This document shows positions 253 to 19,291 of a DNA stretch of 19,311 nt, one piece after another; the first letter of the stretch is position 1, and every line of letters begins with the position of its first letter. Under the pieces are notes generated by a model. It made no database searches, had not been told where the DNA came from, and saw nothing but the letters and a program-made list of their open reading frames with translations. The position numbers and the translations under genes were made by a program. The stretch is from an uncultured Gemmatimonadales bacterium (GTDB taxonomy: Bacteria; Gemmatimonadota; Gemmatimonadetes; JACCXV01; JAHWKZ01), in the NCBI GenBank assembly GCA_947259315.1, contig CAMYLR010000008.1, forward strand, positions 96,839 to 116,149, written 5' to 3'.

Positions 253-2991
253 CTACTCCTCCGATTCCGTTAACCGCTCGAGGATCTGACCCAGCTCTTC
301 GAGCGCTGCCCCGTACGCCGCCCAATCCCCTCTCCGCTGAGCGGCCACCGCTCGGTCGTACGCCGTTTGCGCCTGGCTGGCCAACGATCGCTGACCCGGG
401 GATGGCGCGGTCTCGCGAACCGCTTCGACCTCTGCGACATCGGTCTCGACAGCCGGCGCGGCGCCTCGAATCAGCGCCATCATCGCATCCTCGAGCGTGG
501 GCTCCATCACGATTTGGCTTCCGTAGGTAGCGATTACCCGCCGCAACTCGGGCAGCTGGCTCTGCTGGGCCTGAAGGAACAGCGGCTCCACGTACAGCAC
601 CGATTTGCCGATCGGGATCACCAACAGGTTGCCGCGGATCACGCTGGAACCCTTCTGGCTCCATAGTGTGATCTGCTCGCTGATCGTCGGATCCTGATCG
701 ATTCTGGCTTCGACCTGCATCGGACCATAGATCAGGCGGTCTTTTGGAAACTCGTAAATCACGCGCCGGCCGTAATCGCCGGGGTCGCTCTTCGCGGCCA
801 GCAGCGCGACCATGTTGTCTCGCCGGGTCGGTGTGAACGGCAGCACGAGCTGGAATGCCGGCTGACTGTCGTCCGGCAGCTGCAACAACACGTAGTACGG
901 GACCATTTTCGTTGGTTGGCCCTGGTAGACTTCGTTCGGGATGTTCCACATATCCTCGCGATTGTAGAACACCCGCGGATCCTGCATATGGTAGGCGCGC
1001 AGGACCTCGGCCTGGATCAAGAACAGGTCTTCTGGATAGCGCAGGTGAGCTTCCAGCCCGGCCGGCATCTCGTCGGCCGACCGAAACAGGTCCGGAAAGA
1101 TCAATCGATAGGTCTGAAGAATCGGATCTTCTTCATCCCAGGCAAAGAAGGTCACGTCACCGTCGTAAGCATCGATCACGACCTTGACGCTGTTGCGGAT
1201 ATAGTTGAGCTGCTGTCGGCCGCCAAAACCGCGAACCGGCTCCGAGTACGGATAGCGGCCCGAGGTCGTGTAGGCGTCGATGATCCACACCAACCTCCCG
1301 TCGAGCAACACCAGATAGGGATCCAAATCGTATGATAGAAACGGAGCCAGCCGTCGTGTTCGTTGCTGGATCTGACGGAAGAACATGAGCCGCGAGTCGG
1401 GCGTGATGTCATCGGTCAGCAGAAACTTGATCGATCCTACATACCAACTGAACAACGCTTTGCGCCAAAGCGCGTTGATCTCGAGACCACCCTCTCCGCG
1501 ATACGATGTATAGATGTTCTGATCGCCTCTCGGATAATCGAACTCTTGCTCCCTCGTGGCCGCCAGCACGTAGTTGGTGGTTCGCTCACCGTAGTAGATC
1601 TCGGGGCGTTCGACGCGCAGAACATCAGCCAGCTCGGGTGGCGCCGAGGGTGGGATATCGCTCAGGTAGAAGACCGGCAACCCCTCCCTCGTCACCTCGT
1701 TCACGGGACTCATGACCAATCCATAGCCGTGAGTGAAGATCAAGTGCTGGTTCTGCCACGTCTGGACATTCGGAGCGAGCTCGCCGACCGCCATCTCACG
1801 ACCCGCGAGCATCACCTGCCGAGGGCCGGAGCCGAGATCGTAGCGGTCGACGTCGACATCCTCGAACTCGTAGTACAGCCTCAGCTTCTGGAGCTGGCTG
1901 TAAGTGTCGAGCAACGGACGCCAGTCCCAGAGCCGGATGTTGCTGAGCGTCCCCTCGGACTCCTGCAAGGTCGCGCTCGCGGAAGTTTCGGTGACCTCGA
2001 ACGGTCGCACCTCGATGACATCCAGATCGAACGCGCGTCGGGTGAGCTCGATGTTGCGCGCGATGTAGAGGGCTTCCTTGCCGATCTCGTTGGGCTCGAC
2101 CTCGAACTGCTGGACCGCTCCGGGATAAAGACCTTTGAAGATCACCATCCCGAGTATCAGTGCGCCGGCAGCGGTGAGCGTGAGCACGTAGCGACGGCGG
2201 AAAAGGTCGTAGGCGGCCATGCCGAACGCGGCCAAGGCCAGCACCGCCAGCACCCTGTAGCCGAGCACCTGGGCGTGAGCATCGGTGTACGAAGCGCCGT
2301 AGACGACGCCCCGGCCGGAGTACACCAGCTCGTACAAATCCAACCGGAAGCCCCACGCCAAGACGAGAAACAGCAGCGCCATGATCGCTACCAAGTGACG
2401 CAGCGGTGTGTCCTTGAGCCGGACCCGGTTGTTATCGATCTCCAGCCCACCGCTGGTTATGTACACGATCCCGAGGATGATGAGCGCGGCGATAACCAAC
2501 AGGAACGCCATGTTCTGAGCCATCCGGTAAACCGGGAGCGAGAAGATGTAGAAGCCGATGTCGCGACCGAACATCGGCTCGACTTGATCAAACGGTTGCT
2601 GATGGAAGTAAGCGAGAACGTCCAACCACGTTGTCCCCGCGGCGGCGCTAAAGAGAAACGCCAGAAACGCTGCCCCGGCCATCGCGGTCAAGGTCAAGTA
2701 CCGGGCCGGTACCTCTTCATGAATCTCGATGTTGGAGATCCGCCGTCGGATCGATCCGAAGGAGGCGGCTGCGATCCTCAAGTTGACAAAGAAGAAAGCG
2801 AACATGACCACCGCGACCACAACCCGGAGCAGCAGTCGCATCTTGAGCCCGGTCCAGAACACACTCTGGAACCCAAGCGCGTCGAACCACAACAGATCCA
2901 CGGTGGTATTGACGATCGAGCCTAGGAAGAACAGCGCCAATACGACGAGCACCGCGACTACCGTGACGCTGTGGCGTCTCAACCTCGCCAT
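253..2991 (-). CDS. UPF0182 family large integral membrane protein
   Basis: The 912-residue protein has about seven predicted membrane segments in its first third (near residues 9-28, 53-72, 98-118, 158-180, 200-217, 244-263 and 268-288), followed by a soluble domain of some 600 residues. Family hallmarks are visible: FGRDIGFYIFSLPVYR (141-156), QQFEVEPNEIGKEALYIARN (294-313), and a C-terminal tail with AYDRAVAAQRRGDWAAYGAA, preceded by a low-complexity Ala/Glu/Val linker. The length is normal for UPF0182 (COG1615). The family is widespread, but I know of no established biochemical role. The ATG at 2991-2989 is preceded by GGAGG with 4-nt spacing. It overlaps the last 13 nt of the mutase gene, so translation of the two is probably coupled. 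No substrate or catalytic motif can be named from the sequence. Confidence 0.9.
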   Translation of the reverse strand: MARLRRHSVTVVAVLVVLALFFLGSIVNTTVDLLWFDALGFQSVFWTGLKMRLLLRVVVAVVMFAFFFVNLRIAAASFGSIRRRISNIEIHEEVPARYLTLTAMAGAAFLAFLFSAAAGTTWLDVLAYFHQQPFDQVEPMFGRDIGFYIFSLPVYRMAQNMAFLLVIAALIILGIVYITSGGLEIDNNRVRLKDTPLRHLVAIMALLFLVLAWGFRLDLYELVYSGRGVVYGASYTDAHAQVLGYRVLAVLALAAFGMAAYDLFRRRYVLTLTAAGALILGMVIFKGLYPGAVQQFEVEPNEIGKEALYIARNIELTRRAFDLDVIEVRPFEVTETSASATLQESEGTLSNIRLWDWRPLLDTYSQLQKLRLYYEFEDVDVDRYDLGSGPRQVMLAGREMAVGELAPNVQTWQNQHLIFTHGYGLVMSPVNEVTREGLPVFYLSDIPPSAPPELADVLRVERPEIYYGERTTNYVLAATREQEFDYPRGDQNIYTSYRGEGGLEINALWRKALFSWYVGSIKFLLTDDITPDSRLMFFRQIQQRTRRLAPFLSYDLDPYLVLLDGRLVWIIDAYTTSGRYPYSEPVRGFGGRQQLNYIRNSVKVVIDAYDGDVTFFAWDEEDPILQTYRLIFPDLFRSADEMPAGLEAHLRYPEDLFLIQAEVLRAYHMQDPRVFYNREDMWNIPNEVYQGQPTKMVPYYVLLQLPDDSQPAFQLVLPFTPTRRDNMVALLAAKSDPGDYGRRVIYEFPKDRLIYGPMQVEARIDQDPTISEQITLWSQKGSSVIRGNLLVIPIGKSVLYVEPLFLQAQQSQLPELRRVIATYGSQIVMEPTLEDAMMALIRGAAPAVETDVAEVEAVRETAPSPGQRSLASQAQTAYDRAVAAQRRGDWAAYGAALEELGQILERLTESEE

Positions 2992-4358
2992 GGAACCTCC
3001 ACACTACAGCCGGAGAGGAACTCCTCCAGCTCAGACTGTATAGCAGCCAGCTCTTCTTTGGTCTCGCCTTCGGCTCGAACGACGACTACCGGTTGGGTAT
3101 TGGAGGCCCTCAACAGCGCCCACCCGTGCGGGAACGCGATCCGCACACCGTCGATGTCAACGGTCTCGTACCGTGACCCAAAATGATCCTTGGCAGCGGA
3201 GACGATCTCCCACTTCTGCTCTTCGGTTGTATCGACCCGTATCTCGGGCGTCGACGCGTACTCGTTTAGCTGGCCAACCATCTCTCCCAACGACGTCTCG
3301 TTCTTGGCTATGATCTCGCACAGGCGACAAGCTGCGTAGATGGCGTCATCAAAACCATAGTAATCGTGATAGAAGAAGAGGTGCCCGCTCATCTCGCCGC
3401 CGAACGGGATCCCGTCGGCATGCATTTTCTTCTTCGCCAAGCTGTGGCCGGTCTTCCACATCACCGGCACGCCCCCGTGCGCAATGATGTCTTCCTCCAG
3501 GGCGCGTGAAGACTTGACGTCAAACAGGATCCTCTCACCCGGCGTCATCGTCAGTTGATCCCGGGCGAAGATCGCCGTCAACTGATCCCCGCGGATCGTC
3601 CCGCCACTTTCGTCGACCGCTCCGATCCGGTCGCAATCGCCGTCCAAGCCGATCCCCAGCTCGGCCGACGTTGACGCGGTGCGGGACTTGAGGTCGGCGA
3701 TAAACGCATCGACGGTCGGGTCGGGGTGATGGTTTGGGAAGGTCCCGTCTACCGTGCAGTACATACAGTCGACCCTGGCTCCCACCCGTTCCAGCAGCTC
3801 GGCCGCGAATAGCGCGCCGGTGGCGTTGGCGGGATCGAGAACGACATCGACCGGGCGGGCGAGGGAGACCTTGGACGCCACCATATCGCAGTACTCATCG
3901 GTCACCGGTCGCTCGGTGATCGACCCGGCTCCGGTTGTGTAGTCGTCGGCTTCGATCAGCTGGTGGATCGATTGAATCTCGGACCCCGACAGCGGAAGCT
4001 CGCGGTAACCCAGCTTGAAGCCGTTGTACTCGGGCGGATTGTGACTGCCAGTGATCATCACGCCACCATCGGTCTCCAGTCGATGACCAGCGAAGTAGAG
4101 CACGGGCGTCGGTACGACACCGATGTCGAGAACATCGGCCCCGGCGGCGACCATCCCCGCCGCCATCGCGTCTCGCAGCGAGTCTGACGACGGCCGGACA
4201 TCGCGGCCCAGAGCGACGACAGGCAACTCGAGCCCTCGCTGTCGCCTAAGGTGAGTAACAAACCCACGGCCGATCGCTTCGACAACATCGGTCGCGAGAT
4301 CCTCATCGACTACACCGCGGATGTCGTACTCGCGAAAGATGTGAGCTGGTGCCTGCAC
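2979..4358 (-). CDS. manB: Phosphomannomutase/phosphoglucomutase (alpha-D-phosphohexomutase family)
   Basis: At 459 residues it has the full length of the AlgC/ManB branch. It moves phosphate between C6 and C1 of mannose or glucose through a phosphoserine, feeding GDP-mannose or UDP-glucose and hence cell-surface polysaccharide. Motifs in order: the active-site loop TGSHNPP (104-109) with phospho-acceptor Ser105; the metal loop GLDGDCDR (237-244) with Asp239, Asp241 and Asp243; the sugar-specificity loop GEMSGH (321-326); and the phosphate-binding loop RASNTQP (417-423) followed by VRAEG. The combination GEMSGH plus RASNTQP is typical of dual PMM/PGM enzymes rather than phosphoglucosamine mutase (GlmM). 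The start is GTG at 4358-4356, supported by AGGAG 9 nt upstream and by the alignment of the opening HIFREYDIRG with the family N-terminus. The 3' end overlaps the UPF0182 start. Whether mannose or glucose is the main substrate cannot be told. Confidence 0.93.
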   Translation of the reverse strand: MQAPAHIFREYDIRGVVDEDLATDVVEAIGRGFVTHLRRQRGLELPVVALGRDVRPSSDSLRDAMAAGMVAAGADVLDIGVVPTPVLYFAGHRLETDGGVMITGSHNPPEYNGFKLGYRELPLSGSEIQSIHQLIEADDYTTGAGSITERPVTDEYCDMVASKVSLARPVDVVLDPANATGALFAAELLERVGARVDCMYCTVDGTFPNHHPDPTVDAFIADLKSRTASTSAELGIGLDGDCDRIGAVDESGGTIRGDQLTAIFARDQLTMTPGERILFDVKSSRALEEDIIAHGGVPVMWKTGHSLAKKKMHADGIPFGGEMSGHLFFYHDYYGFDDAIYAACRLCEIIAKNETSLGEMVGQLNEYASTPEIRVDTTEEQKWEIVSAAKDHFGSRYETVDIDGVRIAFPHGWALLRASNTQPVVVVRAEGETKEELAAIQSELEEFLSGCSVEVPWRG

Positions 4359-9265: not shown

Positions 9266-10360
9266 ATGAAAAAGATTCAGCGCGCTCTTCTCGATTGGTA
9301 CGACCAGCATCGTCGGCCGCTGCCCTGGCGCGACAACACCGATCCTTATCGCGTGCTGGTCTCGGAGGTGATGCTCCAGCAGACGCGGGCGGAAACGGTC
9401 GGCCCCTACTTCGAGCGTTGGACCACCCGCTTCCCGACCGTGGAAGCGCTCGCGGAAGCCGATCAGGAAGAGGTACTCGGGCTATGGAGCGGGCTCGGAT
9501 ACTACTCGCGGGCCCGCAATCTCCATCGCACGGCGATGATCGTGTGCGATCGAAACGGCGGACGGATCCCCGACACCGCGGAAGCGCTGCGCGAGCTTCC
9601 CGGGATCGGCGAGTACACCGCCGGCGCGGTGGCCTCGATCGCCTTCGGGCGGTGCGAGCCGGCGGTCGACGGCAACGCGCGACGCGTTCTTGCACGGCTC
9701 TTCGACCTCGAAGCGCCAACTCCGAGCGAGCTCCGACAACTCGCCGGAGGGCTCGTCGCTAACGACCGGCCCGGCGACTTCAATCAAGCGTTGATGGAGC
9801 TCGGGGCGCGCGTCTGTCGCCCCCGTTCCCCGGAGTGCCAGAGCTGCCCTTTGCAGGCGCCGTGTCTGTCTCACGCCCGGGGCACAGTCGATCTGCGACC
9901 GGCGAGGCGCCCACGAACCTCGATCCCAACGTATGCGATCGGAACCGCGGTGATCGTCTCAACAACCGACCGCGCGTTGTTGACTCGCCGACCCGAGAAC
10001 GGGCTATTGGGCGGGATGTGGGAGTACCCGGGACTTCAGGTTGACCAGGATGAAGAGCCGATCGCCGCGGCGGCGCGCGCTATTCGAGAGTTGTTCGGTG
10101 ACATCGCGGTCGAGAGTTGGTCTGACGGAGGCGAGCTGACGGAGATCACACACACCTTCTCTCACCGCCGTCATCTCTACCGAGCGTTTGGCTTTCGCAT
10201 CAGCGACGAACCGGTACCCGACTTGTCGAGCACCGATTGGACAGACGCTCGGTGGTGCTCGGCCGACGCATTGGCCGAACTCCCGTTGTCCGCGGCGCAG
10301 AGAAAACTCGCGCAGATCGTGGCCGCGATCGAAACAACGGGCGCCGAGGCGCCATGCTGA
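9266..10360 (+). CDS. mutY: A/G-specific adenine glycosylase MutY
   Basis: The 364-residue length is normal for MutY. It removes adenine mispaired with 8-oxoguanine in base-excision repair. Visible motifs: SEVMLQQT (33-40) with catalytic Glu34; GLGYYSRARNLH (76-87); helix-hairpin-helix LPGIGEYTAGA (111-121); VDGNARRV (134-141) with catalytic Asp135; and the iron-sulfur loop Cys184-X6-Cys191-X2-Cys194-X5-Cys200, with the exact MutY spacing. The C-terminal NUDIX-like domain (about 222-350) recognises 8-oxoG and carries the HTFSHR loop (296-301). The ATG at 9266 has no obvious SD site, but it gives the standard start MKKIQRALLDWYDQHRRPLPW. The last codons overlap the addB start (ATGCTGA), so mutY leads a repair operon. 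All key residues are present. Confidence 0.96.
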   Translation: MKKIQRALLDWYDQHRRPLPWRDNTDPYRVLVSEVMLQQTRAETVGPYFERWTTRFPTVEALAEADQEEVLGLWSGLGYYSRARNLHRTAMIVCDRNGGRIPDTAEALRELPGIGEYTAGAVASIAFGRCEPAVDGNARRVLARLFDLEAPTPSELRQLAGGLVANDRPGDFNQALMELGARVCRPRSPECQSCPLQAPCLSHARGTVDLRPARRPRTSIPTYAIGTAVIVSTTDRALLTRRPENGLLGGMWEYPGLQVDQDEEPIAAAARAIRELFGDIAVESWSDGGELTEITHTFSHRRHLYRAFGFRISDEPVPDLSSTDWTDARWCSADALAELPLSAAQRKLAQIVAAIETTGAEAPC

Positions 10361-13209
10361 CGGTCGTCCCATCGCGCCGCGCAGCCAACCAACGGATCGA
10401 TCAGCGGCTGGCCGAGCGTGAACCGGTTGCCGGTCTTGGGTCCCAAAGCGCGTGGACACACGACACCACCACGCTGCGAGAGCTGACCGCGCGGGCGTAC
10501 CGCGACCACCCAAGCCCTGGACGGTTGCTCCACTCCCCCGCGCCGAGATTTCTGCTGGCCGAGATCCTGGAGCAGCTCGAGCCCGAGGTACGATCGCTCT
10601 TCGGCCCCGGCATCGGGTTGGCCGGAACCGCTCGCGCAGTCGAAGCCGCGATCGCAGAGATCCGCCAAACGGGTCTATCGGCACTCGACTTGGCGCAGGC
10701 CACGCGCGGCAGGCGACGACTCAAGGCGCTGGCGTGCGTCCTCGACGCTTACGAACGACGGCTAGCAGCCAACGATTGGTGGGACGAGGCGGACGTACTT
10801 GCCGCCGCCGCCGATCGAATCCGTTCCGGCGAATGGGCGCCCCCGGAGCTTGACCGACTCGAGGTCAGCGGCCTGTACGACGTCACCCGCCTTCAGGGAC
10901 GACTGCTGATCGAGCTCGCGCGACGCGCGACGCAAGCGACGATCACCGTTCCTTTCGATCCGCACCACGAGCGCTTGTGCGCGTACGCATTTCCGTACAT
11001 CAAGATGTGGGAGGGTGTTGTCGATCCCGGATTGGCGATCGATATCGAGTTCCTCGATGGCGATCAGCAAAGCTCCGCTCTGCCGGTCGTGTACCGGGCC
11101 GCGGATCCGGCCGACGAGGCGGCTCGGGTCGCCGAGTGGGTCCGCGAGCGTGCCGAGACCGGATGTGCGCTCGAGGAGATCGGCGTCGTCGCGGCCGGTG
11201 GCGATCGCACGTACGCGCTGCTCGCGCGTGAACTCGACAGGGTGGGCGTGCGCCACTACGCGCGTCGCGCGACGCGACTAGCCGAGACCCCGTTCTTCGG
11301 CGCCACGCTGATGGTATTCCGCCTGCTCGACGAAGGGTTCACACGCGAACACCTCCAGGCCTGGGTATCGACCGCGCTGACGTCGCGGCTCGACGCCAGC
11401 CTGCTCGGCTCCCCGCTCGGAGCCGGGCCACCCGCCTCGGACTCACCGACGACCTGGAAACGCGCGCTCGCCGGTATTCAGAGCCCGTCCGCGGCGGCGT
11501 TCAACACCGCCCTCGATCAGCTCCACGAGCTAGCCACTCGAGAGCACTCACCATCCGCGTTCTGGCGAAAGTACGAGCGTGTTCTGGACGTCGTGGGCCT
11601 CAGCGGCACAAACGTGATTCCGACCCGGGATCGCGATCGATGGGAGGAGGCGATCGATCAAGTTCGGCAGTCGCTGACGATGCTCGGTCGCTGGCATGCG
11701 CCGGCCGTCGGATGGCGCACCCATCGGCGCCACTTGCTGGAATCGCTTTCCGGGAGGTCCGCGCCGACCGGGACGGCCAGCCGCGGGGTTGCGGTGTTGA
11801 CCCCGCTCGATGCCCGAGCACTCGTCTTTCGTCACACTGCTGTCATGGGCCTCGGCGAGGGCGCGTACGCTCGGCAACGATCGGCGACAGCGGTATTCGG
11901 GGACGGGGAGCGTGAGTCGCTAAACGAGCAGATCGGCGAGCGCGTCTTTCGCGTCGCGACCGACGAGGCACGCGAAGCGGTGCTGTTGCTCACCGAGCGC
12001 GTGCGCGTCACCTCCGGTGACGTGATGCTGAGCTACGCCGGCCAGGACGATGACGGAAACCCGCAACTACCGGCATATGCGCTTACCGCGATCGAAGACG
12101 AGCTCGAGCTCGACCCGGCGACCACGACCGAGAGTCACTCGCTTCCCGCTTGGCGCCGTGCGCGATCTTCGGATCTCATCGTCCGCGGCCAAGAGTTGGA
12201 GCGCCAGCGCGCGGTTTACTTTTCGCAGGCGGCTGATCGACGTAGAGGTCAGGGAAACGCTTTTGATGGCCAACTCTCGCCAACGACGACCGCCGAGTTG
12301 GGTTCGGAGCTGCGCGACGGGCGGTTGACGCATTGGTCAGCCAGTCGGCTCGAGAGCTGGCGCCAGTGCCCACATCAGTTCTTTATGCGTCATGTGCTGC
12401 GCTTCTATGAGCCCGACGAACAACCACTCGAGGCCGAGCCGACGGCTCTCGGGACGGTCGCGCACGAAGCGCTCCGGCGACTGTATCAGGAGGACCCCGG
12501 GTTACAGAACCCCGGCCGCAAATCGATCGCGGCCGCAGTCCAAGAAGCCGGCGCTTCGCTCCCCGGGTCGGAGCGCGGCGACCCGGCGATTTGGAACGTG
12601 CTGTCTGAACGGGTGACCGCGGTCTTGGCGCGCTACTTCGACTACCTGGAGGAGAAAGTACCGCACGGCGGCCGCGTTCCGGTCGCTTTCGAGTTGTCGT
12701 TCGGGCGCCCGGACGACGAGCTGCCGCCCGTGCTCGTCCCGACGTCGACCGAGACGGTGGAGCTGTCGGGACGCCTCGATCGGCTCGATCGCGACCCGGC
12801 AGGTGGAGATCTCAGTGTGGTCGATTACAAGTACAGCCTCGCGAGGCCACACCACAAACGCGCCGTCGATCCGGCCGAGTGCGGTATCAACCAGTTCCAG
12901 CTGTACGTCTACTTCCTCGGTTCGCTCGCCTGGGCCGAAGCCAACCAGATGCCGCCGGCGCCGACCTTGACCGGCACGATTCACTGCTTGCGCGAACCTA
13001 GAGTGCTCGATGAGGTGGTAGCCCCTAACTCGTCTGATATCAACCGGATGATCGGGTCCACGATCGATGACGCTGTCGACGGCAGCTACGATCCATCGCC
13101 GGCCGATCCTAACCTCTGCAAGTGGTGCGACTTTCGGCGCGCCTGCCGGATCGCCACAGCGACACCGACCTACGTCGGGCTCGACCCGACCAAGGGCGAC
13201 GCCGAATGA
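10354..13209 (+). CDS. addB: AddB-like subunit of the AddAB helicase-nuclease (iron-sulfur PD-(D/E)XK nuclease)
   Basis: At 951 residues this is the partner of AddA in processing double-strand breaks for RecA-dependent repair. The N-terminal two-thirds has a UvrD-like helicase fold: VVPSRRAANQ near residue 4 (motif-Ia-like), then AADPADEAARVAEWV and VMGLGEGAYARQ in the second helicase half. The protein begins at the motif Ia region, so no Walker A is present. The C-terminal RecB-type nuclease is complete: SASRLESWRQCP with Cys672; GTVAHEAL with His704; GRLDRLD with Asp809; VDYK with Asp824 and Lys826; QFQLYVYF from Gln847; and LCKWCDFRRAC with Cys922, Cys925 and Cys931. The four Cys match the AddB 4Fe-4S cage. 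The start at ATG 10354 overlaps the mutY stop by 7 nt; an upstream in-frame reading from 10237 is only mutY in another frame. The stop overlaps the addA start (ATGA). A diverged Cas4-like or RexB-type name would also fit the sequence. Confidence 0.88.
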   Translation: MLTVVPSRRAANQRIDQRLAEREPVAGLGSQSAWTHDTTTLRELTARAYRDHPSPGRLLHSPAPRFLLAEILEQLEPEVRSLFGPGIGLAGTARAVEAAIAEIRQTGLSALDLAQATRGRRRLKALACVLDAYERRLAANDWWDEADVLAAAADRIRSGEWAPPELDRLEVSGLYDVTRLQGRLLIELARRATQATITVPFDPHHERLCAYAFPYIKMWEGVVDPGLAIDIEFLDGDQQSSALPVVYRAADPADEAARVAEWVRERAETGCALEEIGVVAAGGDRTYALLARELDRVGVRHYARRATRLAETPFFGATLMVFRLLDEGFTREHLQAWVSTALTSRLDASLLGSPLGAGPPASDSPTTWKRALAGIQSPSAAAFNTALDQLHELATREHSPSAFWRKYERVLDVVGLSGTNVIPTRDRDRWEEAIDQVRQSLTMLGRWHAPAVGWRTHRRHLLESLSGRSAPTGTASRGVAVLTPLDARALVFRHTAVMGLGEGAYARQRSATAVFGDGERESLNEQIGERVFRVATDEAREAVLLLTERVRVTSGDVMLSYAGQDDDGNPQLPAYALTAIEDELELDPATTTESHSLPAWRRARSSDLIVRGQELERQRAVYFSQAADRRRGQGNAFDGQLSPTTTAELGSELRDGRLTHWSASRLESWRQCPHQFFMRHVLRFYEPDEQPLEAEPTALGTVAHEALRRLYQEDPGLQNPGRKSIAAAVQEAGASLPGSERGDPAIWNVLSERVTAVLARYFDYLEEKVPHGGRVPVAFELSFGRPDDELPPVLVPTSTETVELSGRLDRLDRDPAGGDLSVVDYKYSLARPHHKRAVDPAECGINQFQLYVYFLGSLAWAEANQMPPAPTLTGTIHCLREPRVLDEVVAPNSSDINRMIGSTIDDAVDGSYDPSPADPNLCKWCDFRRACRIATATPTYVGLDPTKGDAE

Positions 13210-16200
13210 GCAACCAGCTCGAGCTGTCGCTCGCCGAGCGGACCGGGGTCGAGAACGTGGCCGACCCGAACAACAGATCGGCGGTTGACCGAGAGCTGTC
13301 ACCAGAGCAGCTGGCCGTCGTCCGTTTCGAGGACGATCTGGTGGTCACCGCTGGCGCGGGCTCCGGGAAGACCCGCACGTTGGTCGAGCTGTACGCCCAC
13401 CTCGTCGAATCGCCGCAGTCGATCCCCACCGCGGATGACGACTTCGGTCCGGAGCGGATCCTCTGCCTGACGTTTACCGAGCGTGCCGCGCGTGAGATAA
13501 AGGAGCGCATCCGCGAGACAATCTCCGATCCAGAGCACCGCCGACAGCTCGAGACCGCACCGATCTCAACATTTCACGCTTTCTGCGCCGGCGTTCTGCG
13601 TCGCCATCCGCTGGAGGCCAACGTCGATCCGGGGTTCTCGGTCCTCTCCGATGACGTGGCCCAAGAGCTGCTCATGCGGGTCGCGGTCGAGACCCTGCAT
13701 CGCGGCGTCGCGGGTGGCGATCTCCCGGCGCGCCAGGCGGTGAGAATCCTGGGGCTCGCGCGAGCCGGCGAGCGCCTGGTTGACCTGGTCCAAGCGATTC
13801 GCACGGCGGGGTGGGAGCTGCGCCAACCGATCGTGCGGTTCGAAGAGCAACTAGAACAGATCGGTGCAGCGATCGAGCACGATCTGCCGCAAGCGATAGC
13901 CACGGCGGTGGAGACGGTTATCGCCGCAGCGCACGAGGCAGACCTCAAGTCACCCAAGGCGAAGCACTATCTGAGAGTGATCGAGAATACGTACGCCGAA
14001 TGGAGCAGTGACCCCACACCTGCCAATGAGGAGAGCCTCGACCAAGCGTGTAACGCCCCAGCCCACAGCTGGCGCTTCCAAGACGTGACCAAGCTGCGGC
14101 ACGCGGCGCGCGACGCGATCACCCTGCTGCGTGGCGCGCGCGCCGAGCTCGAGCACCAAGGGGAGCTCGGTTGCTGGCCGGCGCTAGCGGTTTCGGTGCG
14201 GGCCGCCTACCGCGATGCGCGCGTCAGCCGGCGCGTGCTCGACTACGACGACCTGTTGCTGAGAACCCGCGACTTGCTGATCAGCCACCCGGAGGTTCGG
14301 CGCCACTACACAGAGCGTTTTCGCGCCGTGTTGGTCGACGAGCACCAGGACACCGACCCGGTCCAGCAGGAGATCCTGACGCTATTGATCGGCGCCGAAA
14401 CGATGGCCGGTCAGAGCATCGAAGGCGCCCCCAGATGGTGCGTCGTTGGCGACGCCAAGCAAGCGATCTACGGCTTCCGCGGCGCCCGCGTCTCGGCCTA
14501 CCGCGAGCTCGCGACCAATGCTGAACAGCGCGACGCGCTCAGAATCCTGCGGTCCAACTACCGATCGCGGCCGGGGCTGGTCGCGTTCCACAACGCCTTC
14601 TTTCCGGATGTGCTCGACCCCGATACACACGCTGGCCAGGCACCGTACGAAGAGCAGGTAGCACACCGTGAACCCAGCGCTGAGCCAGCGGTCGAGTTTC
14701 TGCGACCACTCGATGCGAACGGCGGCAACAAGACGAAACGGGCGGTCTCACAACGCGAGCACGAAGCACGCGCGCTCGCGATGCGACTCAAAGCCGCCTG
14801 TGACCCCACCGACACGGACGCGATCCAGATCCAGGACCCGGCGAGCGGAGAGACCCGGCTCGCCGCTCCCGGCGACATCGCCGTGTTGTTACGCCGCATG
14901 ACCGACGTCGAGCCGTATCGTCACGCATTGCAGGCGGTCGGGTTGGAGTCGGTCGTCGTCGGCAGCGGTTCGTTCTACGGGCGACAAGAGGTCTACGATT
15001 GCTTGAACGCGATCGACGCCGCGCTCACACCTCGAGATCCGATCCCATTGATCGCGTTTCTGCGCTCGCCGATGGCCGGGCTGACCGATGACGCGATCTA
15101 CCGGTTGGCGCGTGATTGGGATCGACGCTCGGGGCCACCGCTGCGCGATCACGTGTTCGCTTCACCGGAGAATGTGTTGTCAGACGAGGAGTTGGCGGTC
15201 ATCCAAGACGCCGAATCGACCCTCGACGAGCTCGCGAGTCGGGCCGACACCGAACCCCCTGGAAACACGCTGGCGTGGCTGATCGACCGAACGGCGTACA
15301 CGGCGATCGTCGATGCGTTGCCCGACCGCGCCCAGCGACGCGCGAACCTCAAGCGGTTGGTTTCGGTCGCCGACCGCGCCCCGCGCGATGGGGTCAAGCT
15401 GTTGGCCGAGTGGGCGGCGGCCATCAGGCGGCGCACCGACGTGCCACCGCGCGAGCGCGATGCCCCGCTCCCCGACGCCGGCAATCGAGCCGTGATCATG
15501 TCGATCCACCAAGCCAAGGGCCTCGAGTTTCCGATCGTGGCACTGGCCGACATCGGTTCGAGGTCGCGCTTCAGTATCAACGAAGTCGCCTTCGACTCGG
15601 AGCTGGGGATCGTCGCTAGGCGGTGGGATGACGCGCTGGGCGATTGGGTGCCGACGCTGTCCCACGAACGGGCCAAAGCACGAGACAAGGAGCGCGACGC
15701 GGCCGAGGAGGCGCGGCTCCTCTACGTAGCGTCGACCCGGGCCCGAGATCGCTTGATCTTCTCCGCTGGGGTCAAAGGCAATGTCTGGCTCGAGCTGGTC
15801 GAAACATTTGCTCAGCGCGACGACTCGGGTCTGGTGACCCCGTCACAATCGGAGTGGGCCGATCGGTTTGCAACCGCGGCCGCTATCGAAGCCGAGCTAC
15901 CCGATCCCGGGCGGTCGTGCCTGGAGCCGCTACCGACCGCGCCGGGCGACACGACCGCTCGCGAGGTGGCCGCGCTGCTGGCTGGCTTGCCGGCCGATAC
16001 CGGACCGCGCGCTACCGCTGCATACGACGCGATGCGCGCTTCGCGCTGGCGTGGCCTGGTCGGCCATGAGGCGTTGCAGCGCGTCCCGCTCGATCCGCCG
16101 TCAAGTTTCAAACTCGAGCGGTGGCTGAGTGGCGTGGTCGGCCCCGACGCAGATGAGATTTCGTCGCTAGCCAGCTTTATAAAGGACCACGTGCAGCCGA

Positions 16201-16553
16201 CTCTCGGAACCGCCCAACGGGTGGAGCGTGAGCACGCGTTTCGGCTGCGCCTGCCGGACGCCGGAACGGTCGTCGGAATGATCGACTGTCTGTGGCAAGA
16301 CACCGACGGCGCATGGCGGGTCTGGGACTACAAGTTCGGCGGCCCGAACCCCGACCTGGAAGCGTTCCACGATGCGCAGTTGGCGGTCTACGCGCTAGCC
16401 GCGGCGGCGGCTCTAGACTTGGAGCGAGTCAGTGGTCGCGTGTGGCACGTCGACGGAACCGAGCACCGTGATCTCGAGTGGGACCGCGACGCGTTGGCTG
16501 CGCTCGAGCGCCAGATCGTCGACGTGCTGGCTACGCGTGCGAGTACGGCGTAA
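13206..16553 (+). CDS. addA: AddA: UvrD/RecB-like helicase-nuclease
   Basis: The 1115-residue protein has the full superfamily 1A helicase set: Walker A GAGSGKT with Lys55; motif Ia around LTFTERAAREIKERI; motif II VDEHQDTDP (377-385, Asp378/Glu379), where the usual Phe or Tyr after DE is His; motif III GDAKQAIYGFRGA (415-427); motif IV LRSNYRS; motif V SIHQAKGLEFP (766-776); and motif VI LLYVASTRARDRL (838-850). The C-terminal RecB-family nuclease has GMIDCLW (Asp1027), VWDYK (Asp1041, Lys1043) and AQLAVYAL (Gln1058, Tyr1062). It would unwind and cut DNA from broken ends together with AddB. The start at ATG 13206 overlaps the addB stop as ATGA; the frame is open 28 codons upstream inside addB, but that segment is the addB shadow. 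The 3' end overlaps the convergent eIF-2B-like gene by 23 bp. The AddAB reading is preferred over AdnAB because AddB lacks a Walker A. Confidence 0.93.
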   Translation: MSNQLELSLAERTGVENVADPNNRSAVDRELSPEQLAVVRFEDDLVVTAGAGSGKTRTLVELYAHLVESPQSIPTADDDFGPERILCLTFTERAAREIKERIRETISDPEHRRQLETAPISTFHAFCAGVLRRHPLEANVDPGFSVLSDDVAQELLMRVAVETLHRGVAGGDLPARQAVRILGLARAGERLVDLVQAIRTAGWELRQPIVRFEEQLEQIGAAIEHDLPQAIATAVETVIAAAHEADLKSPKAKHYLRVIENTYAEWSSDPTPANEESLDQACNAPAHSWRFQDVTKLRHAARDAITLLRGARAELEHQGELGCWPALAVSVRAAYRDARVSRRVLDYDDLLLRTRDLLISHPEVRRHYTERFRAVLVDEHQDTDPVQQEILTLLIGAETMAGQSIEGAPRWCVVGDAKQAIYGFRGARVSAYRELATNAEQRDALRILRSNYRSRPGLVAFHNAFFPDVLDPDTHAGQAPYEEQVAHREPSAEPAVEFLRPLDANGGNKTKRAVSQREHEARALAMRLKAACDPTDTDAIQIQDPASGETRLAAPGDIAVLLRRMTDVEPYRHALQAVGLESVVVGSGSFYGRQEVYDCLNAIDAALTPRDPIPLIAFLRSPMAGLTDDAIYRLARDWDRRSGPPLRDHVFASPENVLSDEELAVIQDAESTLDELASRADTEPPGNTLAWLIDRTAYTAIVDALPDRAQRRANLKRLVSVADRAPRDGVKLLAEWAAAIRRRTDVPPRERDAPLPDAGNRAVIMSIHQAKGLEFPIVALADIGSRSRFSINEVAFDSELGIVARRWDDALGDWVPTLSHERAKARDKERDAAEEARLLYVASTRARDRLIFSAGVKGNVWLELVETFAQRDDSGLVTPSQSEWADRFATAAAIEAELPDPGRSCLEPLPTAPGDTTAREVAALLAGLPADTGPRATAAYDAMRASRWRGLVGHEALQRVPLDPPSSFKLERWLSGVVGPDADEISSLASFIKDHVQPTLGTAQRVEREHAFRLRLPDAGTVVGMIDCLWQDTDGAWRVWDYKFGGPNPDLEAFHDAQLAVYALAAAAALDLERVSGRVWHVDGTEHRDLEWDRDALAALERQIVDVLATRASTA

Positions 16554-17442
16554 GCGCCGCCGCGACCTCCACGTCTCCCGATCGCAAATCCTCGGGTCGG
16601 GTGACCCCGCGCTCGGTAATCAGCCGATCTACCATGCTGTACGGAATCTCCTCGAAGTAGATGTTGCACGCGTCGAGTGACTCCGGCGGCTTGAAGACGA
16701 TCTCGGCCGGATCGCGATCGTAGACCCGCGGTAGCCCGGCCAAGCCCGATGGCAACCGCTTGCTCGTGTCGGCCGCCACGATGACGTCGATCCCCTGATC
16801 GGCGGCGCGAGCGGCCAGCGCTCGTGAGCCGATCTTGTTGACCCACCCACCCGGCAGGAGCGCGTCGGCTCCCAAGAGCAGCGCGCCTTCGTCTTCGAGC
16901 GCATTCCACAACCAGGCGTCGATACCGAGCTTGACCGGTACGCCGCGCTCGGCCAAACCCGCCGCCATGCGCGACCCTTCGCTCCCCGGCCGGCTCTCGG
17001 ACATGACGACCTGGAACCAGTTGCCAGTGGCGTGGTGGGTTTCGATCGCGCGACGGATCGTGCTCGACGCGGAGTAAGTGTAGATGACCTCGACGCCTTC
17101 GATCGCGCGACAGAGGTGGAGCCGTACCGACTCGACAGCAGCCGCCAGTCGCGTGCGCCAATCACCGGCGACAGCGGAAACGCCCTCACGGACGGCGGCT
17201 TCATCTGCCCCTTCGCGACGCTCGAGCTCGACCAGAAAGTCGTTGGCCACCCGCAACACCGGCGCTAGCGCCGCCTGCGACCGCGCGACGTCGATCAGCT
17301 GCGATGTCGCCTCCGCCACTTGCGTACCGGGATCGTCGACCCACCGCTCGCCCCAGGTAATCAGCTTATCAGCGACTTCGGCCGCGCCCCGGCGTCGGTC
17401 GGCCGCGATCGTTTCAAGCTCCGGGACGAGGTCCGTCGTCAA
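16531..17442 (-). CDS. eIF-2B/MtnA-superfamily protein without the isomerase catalytic Cys
   Basis: Read from TTG 17442 the protein has 303 residues, the usual size of single-domain eIF-2B alpha-like proteins. An all-helical N-terminus (about 1-110, starting ELETIAADRRRGAAEVA) is followed by a Rossmann-like domain with VIYTYSASSTI (119-129), SESRPGSEGSRMA (148-160), LLGADALLPGGWVNKIGS (189-206) and a C-terminal FEEIP. Isomerases of the superfamily (MtnA for methylthioribose-1-phosphate, and archaeal ribose-1,5-bisphosphate isomerase) use a Cys in the HCN-type loop and an Asp in GAD. Here Asp193 is kept, but the loop reads TYSAS with no Cys, as in eIF-2B regulatory subunits. That argues against isomerase activity by the known mechanism. 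No ATG or GTG is near the expected start; the TTG overlaps the permease stop as TTGA. It is the last gene of an ABC-exporter operon and convergent with addA. Function unknown; it may bind a sugar phosphate or nucleotide. Confidence 0.8.
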   Translation of the reverse strand: MTTDLVPELETIAADRRRGAAEVADKLITWGERWVDDPGTQVAEATSQLIDVARSQAALAPVLRVANDFLVELERREGADEAAVREGVSAVAGDWRTRLAAAVESVRLHLCRAIEGVEVIYTYSASSTIRRAIETHHATGNWFQVVMSESRPGSEGSRMAAGLAERGVPVKLGIDAWLWNALEDEGALLLGADALLPGGWVNKIGSRALAARAADQGIDVIVAADTSKRLPSGLAGLPRVYDRDPAEIVFKPPESLDACNIYFEEIPYSMVDRLITERGVTRPEDLRSGDVEVAAALTPYSHA

Positions 17443-18221
17443 CGAATGAGTCGTCGCCGGATGAGACGCGTGGCGAGCCAGAAGGCTCCAACGGTAAACA
17501 ACACCAGCACCCCGGCGTGCATCCACAGATCCGGGCTCGGGACGCCGGTCGTGAGCGTCCTCGTGAGCACTACGGCGTGTGTCAGTGGCAGGAACTGGGC
17601 TGCCGCCACCGCCCAATCAGGCAACCCGGTCAACGGGAAGAAGACGCCGCTGAACAAGTACATGACGGTGATGACGAGCGTGAAGAAGTAATTGAAGAAA
17701 GTGTACGACGGGCACAGCGCGGTGTACGCCATCCCGAGTGCGCCGAACATCACGCCCACAACAAACGCCACTCCCAGCGCGGCGATCGCTACCGGAGAGT
17801 TCACAAGACCTAGAAACGCCATGATCACCAGCACGAACGCTCCGCCGAGTGCGCCTTTCGACGCTCCCCAGAAGATGTCGCCGGCGACGATCTCCTCGAC
17901 CGCGACCGGCGTCTTTACGATCGCCTCGAACGTCCGTTGCTCCGTCAATCGCGTGAACGAGCCGAACGTCGTCTCGAACGCCGCCGCGGTCATCGCCGTC
18001 GAAGCGATCAGACCCGGCGCCAGAAACGCGACGTACGGCTGACCGTCGATCGGATTCACGAACCGGCCTAGTCCATAACCGATAGCGAGCAGCGTCAAGA
18101 TCGGCTCGGCCAACGTGCCGACCAGCGATGCCAACGCAAAATCCTTCCACGATTCGAAGTTTCGGGACCATACGCGGCTGGCGCCGCGAATCCAATCAAC
18201 CGGTGCCGCGATAGCGCTCAA
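17439..18221 (-). CDS. ABC-2 type exporter permease (NodJ/DrrB-like)
   Basis: From TTG 18221 the protein has 260 residues and about six membrane segments (near 30-50, 62-82, 122-140, 143-168, 175-197 and 233-252), the normal plan of an ABC-2 permease. The amphipathic FESWKDFALASLVG at the start and the LFSGVFFPLTGLP-to-FLPLTHAVVLTRTL block (189-223) are NodJ/DrrB-like. It would form the membrane channel for the ATPase encoded just upstream. The frame is open for 131 codons further upstream, but those lie inside the ATPase gene and read as arginine-rich shadow. No ATG or GTG is found near the ATPase stop, and TTG overlaps that stop as TTGA, so a coupled TTG start is preferred. The gene's own stop overlaps the next start in the same way. 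Substrate unknown; relatives export lipo-oligosaccharides, drugs or polysaccharide. Confidence 0.88.
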   Translation of the reverse strand: MSAIAAPVDWIRGASRVWSRNFESWKDFALASLVGTLAEPILTLLAIGYGLGRFVNPIDGQPYVAFLAPGLIASTAMTAAAFETTFGSFTRLTEQRTFEAIVKTPVAVEEIVAGDIFWGASKGALGGAFVLVIMAFLGLVNSPVAIAALGVAFVVGVMFGALGMAYTALCPSYTFFNYFFTLVITVMYLFSGVFFPLTGLPDWAVAAAQFLPLTHAVVLTRTLTTGVPSPDLWMHAGVLVLFTVGAFWLATRLIRRRLIR

Positions 18222-19291
18222 TCGCGGAGCTCGCGACCAGTGAGCTTTAGAAAGACGTCCTCGAGCGTCGCCCGGCGATGGAGAAAGTCGAGCGTGCCGA
18301 GCCTCGGGAGCAGTGTCCGCGCCATCTCGGCATCGCGGAAAAAGCCGTACACTTCGTCGCCGGCCTGCTCGACGTGGTCGGCGGTCGAGTGGAGCGCACC
18401 GATCGCGTCCTCGTCGTCGCCGCCCCGCAGGAAACACTCGATGACCTCGGCGCCGATATGCTCGGCGATCAGGTCGGCCGGAGAGCCACGCACGACGATC
18501 TCCCCACGGTCCATGATCAACAGCCGATCGCAGAGCTGCTCGGCCTCCTCCATGTAGTGGGTCGTGAGGAGCATCGTGACGCCGGCCCGGTTCAAGGCCC
18601 TCAGCTTCTGCCACACGACGTGACGGGCCTGCGGATCGAGACCCGTCGTCGGCTCGTCGAGGATCAGTAGCTCCGGGTTCGAGATCAGCGCTCTAGCCAG
18701 CGTCAGCCGGCGCTGCATGCCGCCCGACAGCTCGCGGATGTGGGCGTCGCGCTTGTCACTTAGCTGCACGAACTCGAGCAGCTCTTCGGCCCGCAGTCTC
18801 CGCTCACCGTACGGCAGCCCGAAGTAGCGCCCAAAGACGAGCAGATTCTTGAGCACCGTAAGATCGGGGTCGAGGTTGTTCTCTTGGGACACGATCCCCA
18901 AGCGGCTCTTTATCTGTCGCTGGCCGCCTTTCACCGGATAGCCGAACACGTCGAGCTCACCCGATCCGACGCTGACGAAGCAAGCGATCATGTTGATCGT
19001 CGTCGTCTTGCCGGCTCCGTTCGGACCTAGCACACCTAAGCACTCGCCACGGTGAACCTCGAAGTCGATGCTCTTCACGACCGGATCTTCGGCATACGCC
19101 TTAGTGAGGTTCCGGGCGACGATCAGGGGAACCTCGTCGTCCGCAGTTTCGGGAGTGATGTCGACCGGTAACTCTTCGGTGTCAGCGGGCTGTTCGGTTA
19201 TAGGGGCCTCGGCTTCGGTTTCGATGTGTGGAGATTGGGCCGAGAAGCTCAAGTCGAGCTGATCGACCGGCTGGCGTTTAGGAGCGATCAC
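18218..19291 (-). CDS. ABC exporter ATP-binding protein (NodI/DrrA/CcmA-like)
   Basis: The 357-residue reading contains a complete ATPase domain: Walker A GPNGAGKTT (89-97), Q-loop Gln136, signature LSGGMQ (188-193), Walker B LLILDEP (208-214) with Glu213, D-loop GLDP, and the switch His in TTHYMEEAE (His245). The C-terminal part (about 275-357), ending in ATLEDVFLKLTGRELRD, is typical of NodI/DrrA ATPases. The first ~54 residues are an acidic, Pro/Thr-rich, probably disordered extension that is unusual for the family. The start used is GTG 19291 with GGAG 6 nt upstream. The frame stays open to the right edge, so a start outside the window is possible. The stop overlaps the permease start (TTGA). 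It drives ABC-2 export of an unknown substrate. Confidence 0.93.
   Translation of the reverse strand: MIAPKRQPVDQLDLSFSAQSPHIETEAEAPITEQPADTEELPVDITPETADDEVPLIVARNLTKAYAEDPVVKSIDFEVHRGECLGVLGPNGAGKTTTINMIACFVSVGSGELDVFGYPVKGGQRQIKSRLGIVSQENNLDPDLTVLKNLLVFGRYFGLPYGERRLRAEELLEFVQLSDKRDAHIRELSGGMQRRLTLARALISNPELLILDEPTTGLDPQARHVVWQKLRALNRAGVTMLLTTHYMEEAEQLCDRLLIMDRGEIVVRGSPADLIAEHIGAEVIECFLRGGDDEDAIGALHSTADHVEQAGDEVYGFFRDAEMARTLLPRLGTLDFLHRRATLEDVFLKLTGRELRD

Follow-up and report, generated by a model that had tools for sequence, protein, structure and literature searches.

A Cys-less protein of the IF-2B superfamily, which by sequence belongs to the ribose-1,5-bisphosphate isomerase (R15Pi)/eIF2B side of that superfamily, is encoded in one operon with a NodIJ-type ABC-2 exporter at the end of the window (the whole stretch of 19,311 nucleotides analysed, from an uncultured Gemmatimonadales bacterium). 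The loss of the catalytic cysteine, together with a partly retained ligand pocket, appears from the alignments to be family-wide in Gemmatimonadota and resembles the pattern of human eIF2B-alpha, a stress-sensing subunit that binds sugar phosphates without catalysis. The link with the exporter is real but local to one bacterial family.

The exporter operon and its conservation

The operon consists of three genes, which lie where the first-pass annotation placed them and are given here in the order in which they are read:

18218..19291, minus strand: ABC exporter ATPase gene, NodI/DrrA-type, with Walker A, signature and Walker B present
17439..18221, minus strand: ABC-2 permease gene, NodJ-type, 260 aa, TTG start
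16531..17442, minus strand: IF-2B-family protein gene, 303 aa, TTG start

The ATPase motifs are GPNGAGKTT (Walker A), LSGGMQ (signature) and LLILDEPTTGLD (Walker B). Where exactly its gene begins is uncertain, as only 20 nt of contig precede the first listed start. It had been proposed that the three genes are joined by 4-nt overlaps and that their products are made together. Both overlaps are confirmed and both read TTGA, with the TTG start of the permease gene lying over the TGA stop of the ATPase gene, and the TTG start of the IF-2B gene over the TGA stop of the permease gene, so that in this genome both downstream genes start with TTG. The stop of the IF-2B gene overlaps that of a convergent AddA-like gene tail to tail by 23 bp. 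Since the window lies at the end of contig C8 (source genome of 2.4 Mb, 96% complete), it shows only the downstream side of the operon, and the contig end cuts off the region upstream of the ATPase gene.

The exporter assignment is based on Pfam, in which the ATPase matched ABC_tran (116 bits) and the permease ABC2_membrane (68 bits), both over cut-off, the combination that defines an ABC-2 type exporter. The closer family models were matched below their cut-offs, with 344.7 bits (cut-off 521) and 307.1 bits (cut-off 424) for the ATPase against two NodI models, and 203.3 bits (cut-off 206.65) for the permease against the NodJ subfamily. PADLOC returned no match for the IF-2B protein or the permease, and its matches to the ATPase are read here as generic ATPase matches.

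G004 and G002 (another genus, same family) share the three-gene set and its order, convergent with AddA, and their IF-2B proteins show 60% and 57% identity to that of the window, respectively. In both, the permease and IF-2B genes overlap as in the window, the IF-2B start codon being TTG in G004 and ATG in G002. Pairwise comparison of the IF-2B coding sequence among the operon genomes gave pN of 0.17-0.33 versus pS of 0.55-0.61, which indicates purifying selection; together with the recurring overlap, this argues that the arrangement of the IF-2B gene is not due to chance. Joint production of the three proteins is thus supported in three genomes of a single family. These are three of the five genomes of that family (f1), the other two being incomplete or broken at the locus: in G001 (79% complete) the contig stops within the AddA gene, short of the locus, and G003 is 55% complete. 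Upstream of the exporter genes, both G002 and G004 have a methyltransferase gene, accompanied in G004 by a CYTH gene. The tree groups the three operon IF-2B proteins in a single long-branched clade (support 100/100). Given that the operon occurs in only one family and that the surrounding synteny is conserved as well, the three occurrences of the linkage do not count as independent evidence.

Two further gene pairs were observed in the window. On the plus strand, adjacent overlapping genes at 10237-16553 encode a large AddB-like PD-(D/E)XK protein and an AddA-like UvrD helicase-nuclease; a MutY-type glycosylase gene lies upstream of them. The gene for a UPF0182 membrane protein of 912 aa (253-2991, minus strand; 971 bits) adjoins a phosphomannomutase/phosphoglucomutase gene (2979-4358).

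Family, fold and ligand pocket of the IF-2B protein

The first-pass annotation had named the third gene product eIF-2B/MtnA-like and proposed a Pfam search. That search matched IF-2B (PF01008) at 93.2 bits against a gathering cut-off of 22.4, and membership of the superfamily therefore stands. The MtnA part of the name is imprecise, because the protein scores higher against TIGR00511 (R15Pi, 86.1 bits, equivalog cut-off 314.1) than against TIGR00512 (MtnA, 43.7 bits, cut-off 279), both values being well below the cut-offs. An AlphaFold2 model built from 14 sequences (mean pLDDT 85, pTM 0.85) has its best structural matches in R15Pi, including the complex of the C135S variant with substrate (VIA Z 29.5, 2.9 A, 291 residues), followed by 1vb5, MtnA and eIF2B subunits and, more distantly, by ribose-5-phosphate isomerase A (RpiA) and a DeoR repressor (Z about 13). 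A canonical MtnA with the THCNAG motif is encoded elsewhere in the source genome (G000:C6:242346-243215), so that housekeeping methionine salvage does not need the operon protein.

The published residue assignments of the R15Pi PH0208 allow the pocket to be read in two halves: R22, R65, Q166 and K215 bind the 1-phosphate, S137 and K240 the 5-phosphate, and D204, N214 and K215 the sugar (Gogoi and Kanaujia, PMC5789824). The motifs TYSAS, GAD (Asp193) and VNKIG were verified in the window protein, in line with the earlier observation that GAD and NKIG are kept and TYSAS replaces the segment with the catalytic Cys. In the phmmer alignment to PH0208 (PDB), gap-free over the key motif, Ser124 is aligned with the catalytic Cys135, and Asp193 with Asp204. 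A displaced cysteine had been named as what could overturn the Cys-less reading, and no other Cys is placed at the catalytic site of the window protein in this alignment. Phmmer and profile alignments further equate Ser126 with Ser137, Asn202 with Asn214, Lys203 with Lys215 and Lys228 with Lys240, as well as Glu155 with Gln166, Gln56 with Arg65 and Arg18 with Arg22. Compared with R15Pi, the catalytic Asp204 is therefore retained, and the catalytic Cys135 and the 1-phosphate set R22/R65/Q166 are not, apart from the Arg (R18) that the window protein itself keeps at the R22 position.

The same pattern extends over 23 Ser-type proteins, which were selected on how similar they are to the window protein and on alignment, not on the Ser residue, and which, being related sequences, do not amount to 23 independent events. 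All 23 have Ser at the Cys135 position and keep the equivalents of S137, D204, N214, K215 and K240, and in all of them the R65 equivalent is lost and that of Q166 is Glu. The R22 equivalent is lost in 19 of the 23 and kept as Arg in four (R, S, G or H being seen among relatives). Ser124, Ser126, Glu155, Asp193, Asn202, Lys203 and Lys228 are invariant across this divergent family. Three MtnA controls showed the reverse, with R22, R65, the Cys and Q166 kept, and S137 and K240 missing.

Two precedents bear on what such a pocket might do. The C135S variant of PH0208 is inactive, yet still binds R15P (Kd 13.8 uM) and RuBP (7.5 uM). In human eIF2B-alpha, neither the Cys nor the 1-phosphate residues are left, while those for the sugar and the 5-phosphate are retained (PMC5789824); in the same pocket of eIF2B-alpha, fructose-6-phosphate binds as an activator (PMC8187479). 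From the residues kept and lost in the window protein, R18 excepted, it follows that the eIF2B-alpha pattern is present in a bacterium. The earlier suggestion of a Cys-less, ligand-binding and probably non-catalytic protein is well supported by the serine in 23 of 23 sequences, the invariant pocket and the C135S precedent. By analogy with C135S and eIF2B-alpha, we infer that the protein would bind a ligand without isomerising it. We are largely confident that it is not an isomerase of the R15Pi or MtnA type, and consider it probable, with some reservation, that it binds a 5- or 6-phosphosugar or a nucleotide. Automatic annotation would name Ser-type proteins isomerases or translation factors, and both names are likely wrong.

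Limits and explanations of the exporter link

Conserved linkage to ABC genes, the neighbourhood test proposed at first, was found within one family (three genomes) and failed elsewhere in Gemmatimonadota: in our survey of this phylum, the ABC-2/IF-2B pair is confined to family f1 and is not kept beyond close relatives. A class-wide search recovered the permease in five of 119 genomes, of which three belong to the operon family and two to other families. In the nearest exporter relative (G005, from a sister family of the same order), the ATPase and permease genes are followed by a gene with a Ku-like start, recognised by sequence and not by a family search, and no IF-2B gene was found beside them. 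Conversely, IF-2B relatives were present in 16 further genomes of the 295 in the class (E <= 1e-15), one of which (G112) is MtnA, and none of those examined outside the family had ABC genes similar to the exporter (E 1e-10) beside it. The Ser-type IF-2B gene of family f6 has a conserved setting of its own, usually transcribed divergently from gcvP and followed downstream by genes for an acyl-CoA dehydrogenase, an MFS protein, a SpoU methylase, a GAF-GGDEF protein and an inositol monophosphatase. A general functional pairing with the exporter is thus not borne out, as other relatives lack such ABC genes and the sister-family exporter lacks the IF-2B gene.

A scan of genome contigs with the single IF-2B protein gave no relative, and a contig scan with a 10-member IF-2B alignment gave 15 Gemmatimonadota loci, the operon family not among them; in plasmid records only weak MtnA matches were seen. 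In the largely open-access literature searched, no described IF-2B/ABC exporter pairing was found.

Some loci met in the survey are recorded for their own sake. The f6 setting was seen at L038 3528-13990 and at the matching loci L061, L064-L067, L069 and L070. One Gemmatimonadota MAG (G190) has two Ser-type copies, L062 (G190:C129) and L063 (G190:C20), of which one adjoins 4HBT thioesterase and cyclophilin genes and the other a phage-integrase gene. At L072 962-2011 (G224:C49), a gene for an IF-2B protein with THSLS, in which the R22-like Arg is kept, shares 4 nt with an ADP-ribosylglycohydrolase gene. This could possibly link ADP-ribose breakdown to a phosphoribose-binding protein; the placement of the G224 protein is unsure, because in the tree it sits on a long branch joining MtnA.

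The explanation that we tentatively favour, while stopping short of endorsing it, is that a Cys-less protein of the R15Pi/eIF2B branch, made together with a NodIJ-type exporter, lets export follow sugar-phosphate status. The third gene product would not carry out 1-phosphate aldose-ketose isomerisation and would keep the part of the pocket that takes up the sugar and the 5-phosphate; its oligomer would most likely bind a 5- or 6-phosphosugar, or a nucleotide; and through co-production in this one family, the activity of the exporter, or the supply of the exported compound, may track sugar-phosphate status. A functional tie of any kind between the IF-2B protein and the exporter is conceivable, but we lean against it, and contact with the exporter, or control of it, is conjecture. 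The most far-reaching version, a Gemmatimonadota counterpart of eIF2B-alpha in which a dead isomerase has become a 5/6-phosphosugar sensor gating an ABC-2 exporter in one family, strikes us as improbable.

The strongest competitor, which we hold to be possible though rather doubtful, keeps the Cys-less sugar-phosphate binder and drops the functional tie: the protein would be a general Gemmatimonadota sensor or accessory protein, merely co-transcribed with the exporter. The Ser-type relatives outside the family are consistent with it, as those examined have no such ABC genes and several share the gcvP/acyl-CoA dehydrogenase setting instead, and so are the rarity of the permease in the class, its position next to Ku in G005 and the genes upstream, which differ between orthologous loci. 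It accounts less well for the permease/IF-2B overlap, kept across two genera at 57-60% identity despite the change between TTG and ATG, which suggests selection for coupled translation.

Other enzymes of the superfamily, such as RpiA, work without a catalytic Cys. The protein could be an active NagB/RpiA/IF-2B superfamily enzyme that acts on a 5-phosphosugar through Asp193, with or without Ser124, perhaps as an isomerase or epimerase making an export precursor. The seven invariant residues are more conservation than a loose regulator needs, and RpiA and other superfamily enzymes are among the structural matches. We nevertheless think this unlikely, since PH0208 loses its activity when the Cys is changed to Ser (PMC5789824), no 1-phosphate site remains, and eIF2B-alpha exemplifies such conservation serving ligand sensing. 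Finally, an ordinary MtnA or R15Pi misread through a sequencing error or a displaced Cys has a negligible chance of being right and is rejected: the assigned Pfam family does hold both enzymes, but 23 sequences, drawn from many genomes, all align a Ser in this column, no other Cys lies close by, and a normal MtnA is present in the same genome.

Comparison with known exporters and IF-2B proteins

Set beside the NodIJ/DrrAB ABC-2 exporters, the ATPase resembles NodI (345 bits) and the permease the NodJ family (203 bits), although both stay under the curated cut-offs; the window exporter differs in carrying IF-2B as a third gene, and no nod genes were seen nearby. The MtnA of the same genome shares the superfamily, the fold and the GAD and NKIG motifs with the operon protein; it has the Cys and the 1-phosphate Arg/Gln and is without the 5-phosphate Ser and Lys, and the operon protein reaches only 44 bits against TIGR00512.

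R15Pi (T. kodakarensis TK0185, PDB 3a11/3vm6) is the best match in both sequence and fold (Z 29.5, 21% identity), and its S137, D204, N214, K215 and K240 are all kept. The differences lie in Cys135 (Ser124 in the window protein), R65 (Gln56), Q166 (Glu155) and R22, mostly lost in relatives, and in a score far under the curated cut-off (86 versus 314 bits).

With eIF2B-alpha (PDB 7kmf/7kma) the window protein shares the fold, the absence of the catalytic Cys and of the 1-phosphate site, and the sugar/5-phosphate Lys and Asn. In eIF2B-alpha, however, Ala stands at the Cys position instead of Ser, and Glu198 corresponds to Asp193; moreover, the window protein is bacterial, has no eIF2/eIF2B partners and is encoded with an ABC exporter. 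The regulatory core of eIF2B has its relatives among sugar-phosphate isomerases, and the present role of eIF2B-alpha is to sense sugar phosphates. A protein family in bacteria with the same catalytic losses and the same half-pocket would offer a small, testable case of an enzyme turned sensor outside translation.
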